A stretch of 64,000 bases of DNA from Chryseobacterium sp. SC28. Its GTDB lineage: Bacteria; Bacteroidota; Bacteroidia; Flavobacteriales; Weeksellaceae. The notes beneath the pieces were generated by a model. It was given only the letters and a program-made list of their open reading frames with translations. It was not told the origin of the DNA and searched no databases. The translations under genes and the position numbers were made by a program. Location of the stretch: contig NZ_QOVY01000012.1 of NCBI RefSeq assembly GCF_003932955.1, forward strand, positions 1 to 64,000. Reading direction: 5' to 3'. Below are positions 14,872 to 17,529 of this stretch, one piece after another (positions within the stretch are counted from its first letter, which is position 1; each line of letters opens with the position of its first letter).

Positions 14872-14879
14872 TATCTTTG
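14872..14879 (+). promoter_or_regulatory. -7 box of the SRP RNA gene
   Basis: TATCTTTG, full consensus, ends four bases before the paired 5' end of the SRP RNA at 14884, which is where transcription would be expected to begin. Confidence 0.7.
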
Positions 14880-14883
14880 CACC

Positions 14884-14976
14884 GGCAAGTCCTAAACAAC
14901 CAGCTCCTGAAAATCCTCCAGGGTGGGAACGCAGCAAAGGTAATCGGTTGTAGCGGTGTGATTTAGGTAGCTTGCC
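14884..14976 (+). ncRNA. ffs: Signal recognition particle RNA, small bacterial (4.5S) type
   Basis: RNA of the signal recognition particle; it binds Ffh and guides membrane proteins to FtsY. GGCAAG (14884-14889) pairs with CTTGCC (14971-14976) and CTAAA with TTTAG, closing a single long hairpin. The apex holds the Ffh-binding core CCTCCAGGGTGGGAACGCAGCAAAGG with the conserved GGAA-like tetraloop and asymmetric loop. There is no Alu domain, as in the small bacterial class. A T-rich run right after 14976 ends the transcript. Confidence 0.92.
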
Positions 14977-14994
14977 ATTTTTTATTTTTTTAAG

Positions 14995-15052: not shown

Positions 15053-15736
15053 TTAAAATTCAAATTCCTGTCCCAATTCCGGTAACGTGAATTCGATATT
15101 CTTGTCAGCAAAATGCTTCTTGGCTTCGTCGTGATCGATTTTAATTGCCGGAAATGTATCGAAATGGCAACCAATCACTTTCGGCGTTTTCAATAATTCT
15201 GATGCAGCAAACGCGGCTTTGCGAGGGCACATCGTATAGTTTTTCCCAACGGGAAGGATCGACCAATCTAAATTCCCAAAAACCTGTGGAAACAAACTCA
15301 TTTCGGCAGTCACGCCCGTATCTCCCGCCAAATAAAGGTTGCGCCCGTCTGCAAATCTGAAAATATAGCCGGATGCCAATCCGCCGTAAGAACCGTCCGG
15401 AAAGGAGCTGGTGTGCAATGCGGGAACGATAGAAATCTTTAAATTTTCAATCTTCACAGAACCGCCGAAATTGAGATCCATACTATTTGGATGTTTGAAA
15501 TAGCCGCAGATCTCCGGCTGAGCAATGACGGCGGCATCAGGATGATTTTCCAGGACTTCTTTCACGTCGGCAGTATGATCGAAATGGGCGTGGGTAATGA
15601 GCACGTAATCGATTTTTTGCGCGCTAATGTCGAATCCTGATTTGTCTTTCTGAAAATTATAAAAAGGATCAGAAAGGATAGTTTTTCCGTTGTACGTGAA
15701 CAAAAAACAGTTTTGTCCCAAAAATTTTATTTTCAT
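15053..15736 (-). CDS. Metal-dependent hydrolase, metallo-beta-lactamase fold
   Basis: UPF0173/YtkL-type metallo-beta-lactamase-fold hydrolase of 227 aa. The metal motif THAHFDHTAD (His49, His51, Asp53, His54), the AGDTGVTAEM segment and GCHFDTFP are present. Physiological substrate unknown. The first 13 codons are almost exactly repeated upstream of the fic gene at 16517-16556, which shows that the gene once continued the menB-menA operon and that the fic module was inserted at its 5' end. Its present promoter would have to lie in the 40 bases between the repeat and the antitoxin gene or in the module; none is obvious. Confidence 0.93.
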   Translation of the reverse strand: MKIKFLGQNCFLFTYNGKTILSDPFYNFQKDKSGFDISAQKIDYVLITHAHFDHTADVKEVLENHPDAAVIAQPEICGYFKHPNSMDLNFGGSVKIENLKISIVPALHTSSFPDGSYGGLASGYIFRFADGRNLYLAGDTGVTAEMSLFPQVFGNLDWSILPVGKNYTMCPRKAAFAASELLKTPKVIGCHFDTFPAIKIDHDEAKKHFADKNIEFTLPELGQEFEF

Positions 15737-15739
15737 TTT
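15700..15739. repeat. 40-bp direct repeat, copy 1 (hydrolase start)
   Basis: Matches 16517-16556 at 39 of 40 positions; the only difference is T15730 versus G16547. It contains the hydrolase ATG and first 12 codons. The two copies bracket the antitoxin and fic genes, and the unit from one repeat start to the next is 817 bases. Confidence 0.93.
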
Positions 15740-15743
15740 ATGA

Positions 15744-15777
15744 TTGATTTTTTGTTAAAAAAAATATTATACATTTG
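15744..15777 (+). promoter_or_regulatory. Promoter of the small Fic antitoxin-like gene
   Basis: TTG (15744-15746), 23 bases, then TACATTTG (15770-15777), a full -7 consensus. The box ends four bases before the ATG at 15782, so the message probably has almost no leader, as also seen for the XRE gene at 2767. Confidence 0.65.
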
Positions 15778-15781
15778 TTAT

Positions 15782-15964
15782 ATGAAATTTTTTGAAAAAT
15801 ATCCTTCTCTTAATCAGAAAGAAACGCTTATGAGCTTATTGGAAAAAAACCTGTACGCGACGATGATATTGGAAAACCAAAAAGTTTCAAGAGCAAAAAT
15901 AAAAAAAATTGTTGCGGATATTTTAGATAAAAAATCAAAAAGCAACAAGGTTTTCTTCAATTAA
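15782..15964 (+). CDS. Small class I Fic antitoxin-like protein
   Basis: Sixty-residue, Lys-rich, probably helical protein. It contains TMILEN (residues 27-32), an exact match to [S/T]xxxE[G/N], the motif whose glutamate (Glu31 here) blocks the Fic active site by pairing with the second arginine of the Fic motif. The context around it, LEKNLYATMILENQKVS and then KIKKIVADILDKK, parallels the VbhA antitoxin layout of an inhibitory helix followed by two short helices. The frame extends further upstream to 15713 but the promoter box falls inside that part, so 15782 is the start. It converges on fic and overlaps its last 30 bases. Assignment rests on motif and location only. Confidence 0.68.
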   Translation: MKFFEKYPSLNQKETLMSLLEKNLYATMILENQKVSRAKIKKIVADILDKKSKSNKVFFN

Positions 15965-16516
15965 TTCATATAATTCGTGGAAATTTCCTTCGTCTGCATT
16001 TTGTAAAGCGCTAATGTAGATTTTTCTACTGTCACCTGCTCTGTGATAAAGCTCGATGGGTCTGAAACCGAATTTCATTGATACTATATTTAATATTAAT
16101 CTCGCCATTCTGCCGTTTCCGTTATTAAATGGATGGATTTTCACAAATTCATAATGGGCAAATATTAAGCAATCAATAATATCTTTCTTATTTGCCGCTG
16201 AAGCAATTAAACCATCTAAATTATCAAAAAATTGATACATAATATTAGGAAATTTTTTGAAAGAGGGCGGTTGAAGCTTGCCTACAGCAACATCTATTTT
16301 TCTCCATTTGCCTGCCCAATCATAAAGTTCGCCAAACGCAATTTTGTGCAGTTTTAAAATTAATTCGGAATCAATTTTATCATCAATATCTAATTGATAA
16401 ATTTCCAATTCTGCCAATCCCACACCTTTTGCTTCATATTCATTAAGCAAGTCTTTATCTGTGATTCCCAGTAAATTTTCATCCGGAAAAGGCGTCCAAT
16501 TGGTATTACTATCCAT
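15935..16516 (-). CDS. Fic/DOC family protein
   Basis: Fic-domain protein of 193 aa. The catalytic loop is HPFNNGNGRMAR (128-139) with His128, Arg136 and Arg139; the upstream GELYDWAGKWRK block forms the usual flap/N-terminal part seen in small stand-alone Fic proteins. Family members attach AMP or a related group to target proteins. The position normally Asp/Glu in HxFx[D/E]GNGRxxR is Asn132, a variant also common in mobile-element Fic proteins. No [S/T]xxxE[G/N] motif is seen within this protein, consistent with a separate antitoxin. The ATG overlaps a 14-codon relic of the hydrolase start. It lies downstream of menA on the same strand. Confidence 0.9.
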   Translation of the reverse strand: MDSNTNWTPFPDENLLGITDKDLLNEYEAKGVGLAELEIYQLDIDDKIDSELILKLHKIAFGELYDWAGKWRKIDVAVGKLQPPSFKKFPNIMYQFFDNLDGLIASAANKKDIIDCLIFAHYEFVKIHPFNNGNGRMARLILNIVSMKFGFRPIELYHRAGDSRKIYISALQNADEGNFHELYELIEENLVAF

Positions 16517-16553
16517 ACAAAAAACAGTTTTGTCCCAAAAATTTTAGTTTCAT
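16509..16553 (-). pseudogene. 14-codon relic of the hydrolase 5' end
   Basis: Reads MKLKFLGQNCFLYG then stop; the intact hydrolase begins MKIKFLGQNCFLF. The TAG stop lies within the first codons of fic in another frame (fic ATG at 16516), so ribosomes starting at the old hydrolase ATG would finish next to the fic start. It is both a scar of insertion and a possible leader peptide. Confidence 0.75.
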
Positions 16554-16556
16554 TTT
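16517..16556. repeat. 40-bp direct repeat, copy 2 (upstream of fic)
   Basis: Second copy of the hydrolase 5' end, 39/40 identical to 15700-15739. It joins directly to the fic start codon, so whatever used to express the hydrolase now lies upstream of fic. Confidence 0.93.
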
Positions 16557-16599
16557 TTTCTTTTTTTTTAAAATTTAAAATCGCAAAAAAAGTTTATTT

Positions 16600-17529
16600 T
16601 TAATTAAAATAGTTCAATCCAAAAGCCACCAAAATACTCATTACCAATGTAATGATTCCCACTTGTTTCAGAAAAGGATCGAGTTCTTTTGGTTCTTTTA
16701 CTTCCATCATTTTTCTGCGCAAAGACATCAGCGGAAATACCATAACAAAAAATATAAATGCATAATAGTTTCCTTGTTTTTGCAAACCATTGATCATCAT
16801 ATAAATTAAAACCAAAATAGGCGGAAGCATCAAAATAATCATTTCATAGACCATTGCATTTTTGAAACCCAATCTTATTGCCAAAGTTTTTTTCCCAGAT
16901 TTCGCATCACTTTCTATATCTCGCATATTGTTGAGATTAAGGACTGCTGCGCTCAAAAAACCTACTGCCGTTGCGGGCAAAAATATGTCCCAATCCAATG
17001 TTTTTGTAAACAGAAAATAACTGCCGCAAACCGAAACCAATCCGAAAAAGATGAACACAAAAATATCGCCCAAACCTAGATAACCGTAAGGTTTTTTCCC
17101 GACGGTGTATCCAATGGATGCCAAAATAGACGCAATTCCCAATCCGATGAAGATCCAAAATTCTTTGGCATAATCGGGATAAAATGCGAGATACAACAAT
17201 GCCACTGTTGCCAAAAAAGATAGGATTGAAAATAAAATAACGGCGTTTCGCATTTGTTTTTCAGAAATTTTGCCAGACGCTACGGCTCTTTGCTCGGCTT
17301 CTCCTATTCTATTATGGTCGGTCCCCTTGATGCCATCGCCGTAATCATTGGCAAAGTTGGAAAGGATTTGATAGAGCAAAGTCACAAGAAGTGCCAAAGC
17401 AAAAATCCGCCAATCCCAAAAACCGCCATCTTGAGAAATCCGCCATCTGGCGATAAAAGAACCCATAATAATTCCGCTGATTGAGAGCGGTAAAGTTCGC
17501 AGTCGAGCTGCTTTTATCCAATCGATCAT
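16600..17529 (-). CDS. menA: 1,4-dihydroxy-2-naphthoate prenyltransferase
   Basis: Integral membrane prenyltransferase (309 aa) that joins the polyprenyl chain to DHNA in menaquinone synthesis. The first aspartate-rich motif is NFANDYGDGIKGTDHNRIG, the second is NNMRDIESDAKSGKKTLAIRLG, both on the cytoplasmic face. Eight or nine membrane helices are visible. The N-terminal IKAARLRTLPLSISGIIMG is typical of bacterial MenA. It lies 83 bases downstream of the menB stop on the same strand. Menaquinone is the sole respiratory quinone in this bacterial group. Confidence 0.96.
   Translation of the reverse strand: MIDWIKAARLRTLPLSISGIIMGSFIARWRISQDGGFWDWRIFALALLVTLLYQILSNFANDYGDGIKGTDHNRIGEAEQRAVASGKISEKQMRNAVILFSILSFLATVALLYLAFYPDYAKEFWIFIGLGIASILASIGYTVGKKPYGYLGLGDIFVFIFFGLVSVCGSYFLFTKTLDWDIFLPATAVGFLSAAVLNLNNMRDIESDAKSGKKTLAIRLGFKNAMVYEMIILMLPPILVLIYMMINGLQKQGNYYAFIFFVMVFPLMSLRRKMMEVKEPKELDPFLKQVGIITLVMSILVAFGLNYFN

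Follow-up and report, generated by a model that had tools for sequence, protein, structure and literature searches.

A small gene convergent with fic in Chryseobacterium as the candidate antitoxin of a possibly mobile Fic module

The class I Fic antitoxin genes described so far lie directly upstream of fic on the same strand, as far as the accessible text of the relevant papers goes (PMC5033356, PMC8401265, PMC13327609). In the genome of Chryseobacterium sp. SC28, this layout does not hold for one fic gene, which is faced instead by a small open reading frame of 60 codons on the opposite strand. This raises the question of whether the small frame is a gene at all and, if so, whether its product is the inhibitor that the Fic protein lacks in its own chain.

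The window analysed here is a stretch of 64,000 nucleotides in which the fic gene (15935..16516, minus strand) encodes a protein of 193 aa with an intact HPFNNGNGRMAR and a Pfam Fic match at E 9.2e-19; the small gene (15782..15964, plus strand) encodes 60 aa. Both frames lie where the preliminary description of this DNA had placed them, and they converge as it said, their 3' ends sharing 30 bp (15935..15964) that take in both stop codons. The neighbours are a gene for a metallo-beta-lactamase-fold hydrolase (15053..15736, minus strand) and a gene for a UbiA-type prenyltransferase (ubiA, 16600..17529, minus strand); a small SRP RNA gene (Rfam RF04183, 94.8 bits) is found on the plus strand at 14876-14981. 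TMILEN indeed occupies residues 27-32 of the small protein. The claim that the Fic protein has no [S/T]xxxE[G/N] motif of its own extends to its relatives, since the motif is present in 0 of 18 Fics (the window protein and 17 aligned relatives).

Given that 2 of the 54 ATG-started ORFs of 50-70 aa in the window contain this motif, the motif is not rare alone, and the small ORF might be a chance frame antisense to the 3' region of fic with a coincidental motif. Nor do the databases name it: there is no Pfam or NCBIfam match for the window's small protein at E up to 1, and no credible Pfam match for its 22 homologues. Yet about five sixths of the small gene lies outside the overlap, and the frame is conserved. 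Among 395 genomes searched in each case, homologues occur in three genomes of the order besides the window (E below 1e-9) and in 11 genomes of the class, window included (E below 1e-10); others are found in five genomes from other classes of the phylum and, beside Fic relatives, on three Hymenobacteraceae plasmids. The ATG lies exactly 26 residues before an [S/T/N]MxLE motif in 20 of 22 loci and 32 residues before it in the other two, a distance kept across orders and classes. Codons taken outside the overlap (those of L093/L094, where 24 were used, reach two codons into it) yield dN/dS values of 0.03-0.26 in 21 of 25 close-relative pairs, those with a finite dS; in the remaining four, dS is saturated and dN is 0.08-0.13. 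For the window's own small protein the nearest homologues are 43-47% identical, and none of the relatives found is near enough for selection on the window's own genes to be measured. The small frame also stays open at loci where fic is broken. On the conserved start distance and the purifying selection we rejected a chance frame, a reading to which we give practically no credence; the small ORF is a real protein gene.

Does the Fic protein ever occur without it? Searching the class from the Fic side, we found that all nine genomes with this Fic (E <= 1e-40; 395 searched, window included) have the small gene facing it; the nine all fall among the eleven antitoxin genomes, with the genes convergent. 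A phylum search of 345 genomes returned seven Fic genomes, two of them already counted at class level, and each of the five that it added has a convergent small gene. The same is true of the three best-ranked plasmid Fic records, which are also the only ones at E <= 1e-20 with a second Fic query; the tally covers these best three, the other 650 plasmid records showing about 31% identity to Fic or less among the matches listed. Thus 0 of 17 Fic-first members, window included, lack the small gene, and 0 of 23 homologues have lost the motif Glu. Either kind of loss would have counted against the dedicated inhibitor proposed at the outset, and neither was seen. Two more loci with full Fics (L042, L043) were located via the antitoxin. 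The homologues in order, class and phylum, the low dN/dS and the pairing of 17 of 17 Fic-first members make the motif more than a chance occurrence. Distances among antitoxins and among Fics are also correlated (r 0.93 for 18 pairs and 0.90 for 11 representatives, with 0 of 5000 permutations as high), although this may equally reflect the common descent of linked genes, not contact.

Several loci have lost one member of the pair. At L041, L063 and L068 the small frame is open and the Fic is truncated or internally deleted. At L066 (genome G468), which was counted as present in the Fic-first tally and left out of the Fic alignment, the Fic frame (943 onward) is open with its ATG changed to AAG, an ATG that the close relative L069 keeps; the antitoxin is open. 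The antitoxin is also found by itself. One solitary homologue (L083, 3001-3159) has terminase genes (PF20901, PF04466) as neighbours; its contig, 43.7 kb long and part of a virus collection, gave no Fic in a search run without a positive control in that record. Another (L138, 2501-2668) was found on a Hymenobacter canadensis plasmid after the antitoxin alignment was made and stands outside the counts of 23; the 5 kb read there hold no Fic of the window family, and an unrelated larger Fic lies 1.6 kb away. Broken Fics beside open antitoxins, and solitary antitoxins, are as expected if the small gene encodes an antidote. The next gene at L138, which overlaps it, encodes a Schlafen/AlbA-type piece and is followed by a gene with a RecG-C-terminal-type domain.

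Across the 23 antitoxin homologues compared, Met28, Glu31 and Gln33 never vary and Val35 is kept in 22; position 27 is Thr in 15, Ser in 5 and Asn in 3 (L093-L095), and position 32 is Asn in 13, Asp in 3, Glu in 3, Thr in 2, Gly in 1 and Ala in 1. The motif that was named from the window is therefore exact there and universal in its Glu (23/23), but its strict form, [S/T]xxxE[G/N], occurs in only 14 of the 23. An AlphaFold2 model of the antitoxin, made with two sequences (mean pLDDT 82), predicts a helix at residues 13-30 that ends at the motif (T27-M-I-L-E31-N32-Q33), a loop, and a second helix at 37-56. Foldseek with this model returned 25 matches, none at E <= 0.001, which we regard as noise.

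Profile comparisons point to the inhibitory segment of other Fic proteins. In a search of the whole PDB, the best match of the antitoxin is a weak one to C. elegans FICD (5jj6; E 0.028, domain E 0.1), in an alignment of 44 positions that covers FICD residues 116-163 and pairs Glu31 with the Glu of TVAIEG; we take this stretch to be the inhibitory helix with its inhibitory Glu. The other three matches listed at E <= 10 are 5jj7 (FICD with that Glu changed; E 1.3) and two unrelated chains. With hhalign, the antitoxin falls in register with the SNSIEG of nine class II Fics from relatives (E 0.0018, probability 15%, run without a shuffle control), and its residues 20-51 match the C-termini of six MMPA-like proteins at 91.6% (E 8e-7), eight column shuffles giving at most 1.5%. 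The resemblance to VbhA that had been suggested found no support: none of 23 members matches the VbhA Pfam family (PF18495) at E up to 1, and hhalign gives 2.1% against a VbhA-like set of only three proteins. Judged by sequence, the antitoxin appears to resemble the inhibitory segment of FICD and class II Fics and the C-terminus of MMPA-like proteins rather than VbhA.

FICD is likewise the best solved-structure match of the Fic profile (E 5e-25). The window Fic is recognized by PADLOC as defence candidate PDC-S04 (E 8.3e-39) and scores below the cut-off both for TIGR02613, mobile mystery protein B (68.3 of 124.4 bits), and for the VbhT model. It sits on a long tree branch (0.62) and has no close orthologue among 59 relatives (best identity 30%); a scan of genome contigs with it found nine distant Fics, and a viral scan found no relative of the Fic alignment. 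The window Fic is probably an AMP-transferase that would harm the cell when free. Its AlphaFold2 model, made with seven distant sequences, has a mean pLDDT of 44, so the geometry of binding is argued from sequence alone. By analogy with the inhibitory helix that class II Fics carry in cis and FicA antitoxins supply in trans, helix 13-30 of the antitoxin would occupy the nucleotide site of the Fic and place Glu31 on Arg139, the second Arg of HPFxxGNGRxxR. The 60-aa protein would then be a dedicated Fic inhibitor. Conservation, co-occurrence, the invariant Glu and the likeness to known Fic inhibitory segments give good support to the separate convergent inhibitor that was expected at the outset; very probably, the 60-aa product serves as antidote to this toxin.

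How does the pair relate to known systems? The class I FicTA pairs (VbhT/VbhA, EcFicT/EcFicA, which is Fic/YhfG, and Fic-1/AntF) also combine a short Fic without the helix with a separate Glu-motif protein, according to the accessible parts of their descriptions. The window has an HPFx[D/N]GNGRxxR-type core, no inner motif and a separate motif protein; its antitoxin gene is convergent with a 3' overlap, in contrast to the described upstream position on the same strand. Because the protein features of the class are present and the described gene layout is not, we file the pair as a variant of class I; the departure is one of layout rather than of mechanism. A same-strand upstream pair of the known type is present in the order as well (L098/L011). 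FICD and the class II Fics, which the antitoxin and the Fic each resemble, differ in that their helix belongs to the same chain, N-terminal to the Fic core, where the window Fic has none. The MMPA-like proteins (TIGR02612 type) differ in being about 150 aa long, in their N-terminal HTH-matching domain, and in being encoded upstream on the same strand, overlapping the start of Fic; with its 60 aa, convergent gene and lack of an NCBIfam or Pfam match, the window antitoxin does not have the features of TIGR02612. One inhibitory segment may have been put to three uses, in cis in class II Fics, at the end of a longer upstream protein in the MMPA-like type, and alone and convergent in the window, a scheme for which part of the sequence evidence is weak.

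MMPA-type proteins at L073, L074, L075, L078, L080 and L082 carry a C-terminal [T/S]MxLE[D/N/G]Q, and their genes lie upstream of and overlap the Fic gene; by sequence, such proteins look like Fic antitoxins too. In E. coli, a small antitoxic protein, AS1, is encoded downstream of the Fic protein Sofic, a point of likeness to the window, but Sofic is a class II Fic with its own helix, so far as the available text states (PMC12249575). For a convergent Fic pair we found no description in the open-licence literature, which was represented mostly by titles and abstract openings.

The convergent layout also invites the reading that antisense RNA, in a type I-like manner, is the main control and the small protein a secondary one. 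Type I toxin-antitoxin pairs with antisense RNAs are often convergent. Here, every one of the 19 loci that have a full-length Fic frame (the window and 18 of 18 others) is convergent, 18 of them with an overlap, and no terminator-like site was detected in 15600-16700, which says little because only 0.4 would be expected by chance. The overlap, however, ranges from none to 117 bp. An overlap of 30 bp is shared by the window, L042, L043 and L071; five loci have 39 bp, the plasmids 14-29 bp, L093-L095 96-117 bp and L096 4 bp, and L097 has none; in L065 and L072, whose Fics were found by profile, it is 32 and 36 bp as read from coordinates. Since orientation is conserved and overlap length is not, what the loci have in common is not a sense-antisense duplex of fixed extent. 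Selection on amino acids, and the solitary antitoxins of a phage contig and a plasmid, which have no family fic nearby, further argue against antisense RNA as the main control, which we consider very unlikely; an antisense effect in addition to the protein may exist.

A consensus promoter had been assigned to the small gene. A sigma-70 scan finds none on the plus strand there, but a TAnnTTTG match, TACATTTG (15770..15777, plus strand), ends 4 nt before the antitoxin ATG; TAnnTTTG is what we take to be the Bacteroidota -7 element. In 13 of 22 loci, which are not independent, the 40 bp in front of the antitoxin ATG contain it, compared to 0.87 expected by shuffling. In 12 of the 13 it ends 4-9 nt from the ATG, which suggests that the antitoxin mRNA is leaderless. 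The antitoxin may thus have its own promoter, perhaps with a leaderless mRNA, and this would make it independent of toxin transcription. Upstream of the fic ATG, TAnnTTTG is found in 4 of 11 loci, the window not among them.

What drives fic in the window may be explained by the DNA that flanks the pair. A 40-bp direct repeat has its left copy (15700..15739) at the start of the living hydrolase gene and its right copy (16517..16556) on the ubiA side, as a duplicate of the 5' end of that gene. The hydrolase start, present twice in the window, occurs only once in the stretch fetched from each of the genus relatives with a full-length hydrolase gene (20 of 20). ATTTTTGGGA is found in both window copies and in 0 of the 20 relatives, from which it follows that the duplication arose in the lineage of the window. 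Of the 19 relatives resolved, 15 have the end of ubiA immediately in front of the hydrolase gene, and L116 has this arrangement too, judged by its sequence. The pair looks like a small mobile cassette whose insertion in the ubiA-hydrolase gap would have duplicated 40 bp of the target. A remnant leader ORF (16509..16553, minus strand), derived from the duplicated start of the hydrolase gene, encodes MKLKFLGQNCFLYG and then a stop codon. At its end it overlaps the start of fic by 8 nt, so that fic may be translationally coupled to it. In this way the toxin seems to have captured the start signals of the host hydrolase gene, and the window fic seems dependent on read-through from ubiA together with this captured start.

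In L114, L118, L122 and L127 the gap between these two genes is occupied by another gene, whose product has 95 aa in L114 and 307-326 aa in the other three, so this gap may be a hot spot for insertion.

Flanking direct repeats were found in only 3 of 22 loci, and the other 19 have none above shuffles in a test based on fixed stretches around the starts of the two genes, which suits L041, L063 and L068, with their broken Fics, less well. Besides the window, the loci with repeats are L064, where a 58-bp repeat of 91% identity (1417-1474 and 2270-2327) consists of 3'-terminal sequence from a gene for a low-molecular-weight phosphatase (PF01451), and L072, where a 140-bp, 91% intergenic repeat surrounds the pair and may be a dispersed repeat. 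The repeat-flanked pair of L064 adjoins a ParE-like toxin gene. Insertion of restriction-modification genes with a long target duplication was reportedly described by Nobusato in 2000. Like the restriction-modification units for which insertion with a long, variable target duplication is stated in the available text of PMC3874152, the window pair would be an addiction-type unit flanked by a long target duplication; unlike them, the unit here is a Fic pair, with a duplication of 40 bp for the window and repeats of 58 bp (L064) and 140 bp (L072) elsewhere.

The convergent layout is not confined to one Fic family. A layout survey covered the 30 loci of the Fic search among relatives, of which 25 gave a Fic frame by pattern. 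A convergent motif-bearing ORF was found in the window, L002 and L003 and an upstream motif ORF in L011, while the match in L022 is probably due to chance; the inner motif is present in 18 Fics, and L010 and L023 have neither an inner motif nor such a neighbour. L002 and L003 are the best Fic relatives in the genus, at about 30% identity, and belong to a second family with further members elsewhere in the bacterial family (L135, L136). In 4 of the 4 genomes with this Fic (128 searched), a facing convergent ORF of 50 aa overlaps the end of Fic (L002 1614-1766, L003 2042-2194, L135 2072-2224 and L136 1994-2146, all on the minus strand). These ORFs carry SFxIE[R/K/G], which in L136 is an exact [S/T]xxxE[G/N], and show dN/dS of 0.14-0.35 (three pairs). 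Because its frame lacks an ATG near the usual start, the Fic of L136 may be shortened. In the Fic tree, the convergent members cluster without forming one clade (2 changes; deep forks are weak and long branches meet), and the two convergent families are not joined, again with weak support at depth; a single origin of the convergent layout is thereby neither shown nor excluded.

A separate question is whether the pair is a toxin module at all. The Fic could be a regulatory AMP-transferase, and its complex with the small protein mainly a deAMPylase or a tuned housekeeping switch; in Pseudomonas, Fic-1-AntF removes AMP from GyrB via the antitoxin Glu, according to the accessible part of PMC13327609. 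The patchy distribution of the pair (9 of 395 class genomes), its carriage on plasmids, its apparent entry as a cassette and the broken toxins beside open antitoxins nevertheless fit addiction or defence better. We consider a regulatory role in place of a toxin module unlikely, and both activities may coexist. In line with its protein features, and with good confidence, we see the pair as a type II toxin-antitoxin system belonging to class I of the Fic modules, in which the helix would be supplied in trans and convergently and which probably travels as a mobile cassette; the presence of repeats at only 3 of 22 loci tempers this confidence slightly.

Whether such a module serves in anti-phage defence, with the solitary phage and plasmid antitoxins as counter-defence, is more doubtful; we regard it as possible. 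The Fic matches PDC-S04, on the contig of the virus collection the antitoxin neighbours terminase genes and a search of all 43.7 kb gave no Fic, and the class II Fic Sofic defends by abortive infection, as stated in the available portion of PMC12249575. This phage contig is the only one found, however, 50,697 phage records gave no match, and PDC-S04 is only a candidate label for this Fic family.

These findings bear on how Fic modules are sought and how they arise. A large survey of toxin-antitoxin pairs considered only co-directed neighbours within 100 bp, according to the accessible text (PMC2701414), a design that misses convergent pairs; the whole conserved family described here is convergent. 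The resemblance of the antitoxin to a stand-alone FICD inhibitory segment bears on the relation between class I and class II Fics, between which gene fission has been suggested, as far as the available part of the source goes (PMC13327609). In a convergent layout, toxin and antitoxin cannot share an mRNA, which changes the usual logic of their expression. With the empty sites in its relatives, the window provides a clear example of how a toxin-antitoxin cassette enters an operon-like gap, duplicating a long piece of the target and apparently capturing a start. As a tentative extension, convergent Fic modules of Bacteroidota, perhaps of more than one origin and each with a separate FICD-type helix, might move by themselves, capture start signals as they insert, and be answered by solitary antitoxins of phages and plasmids.
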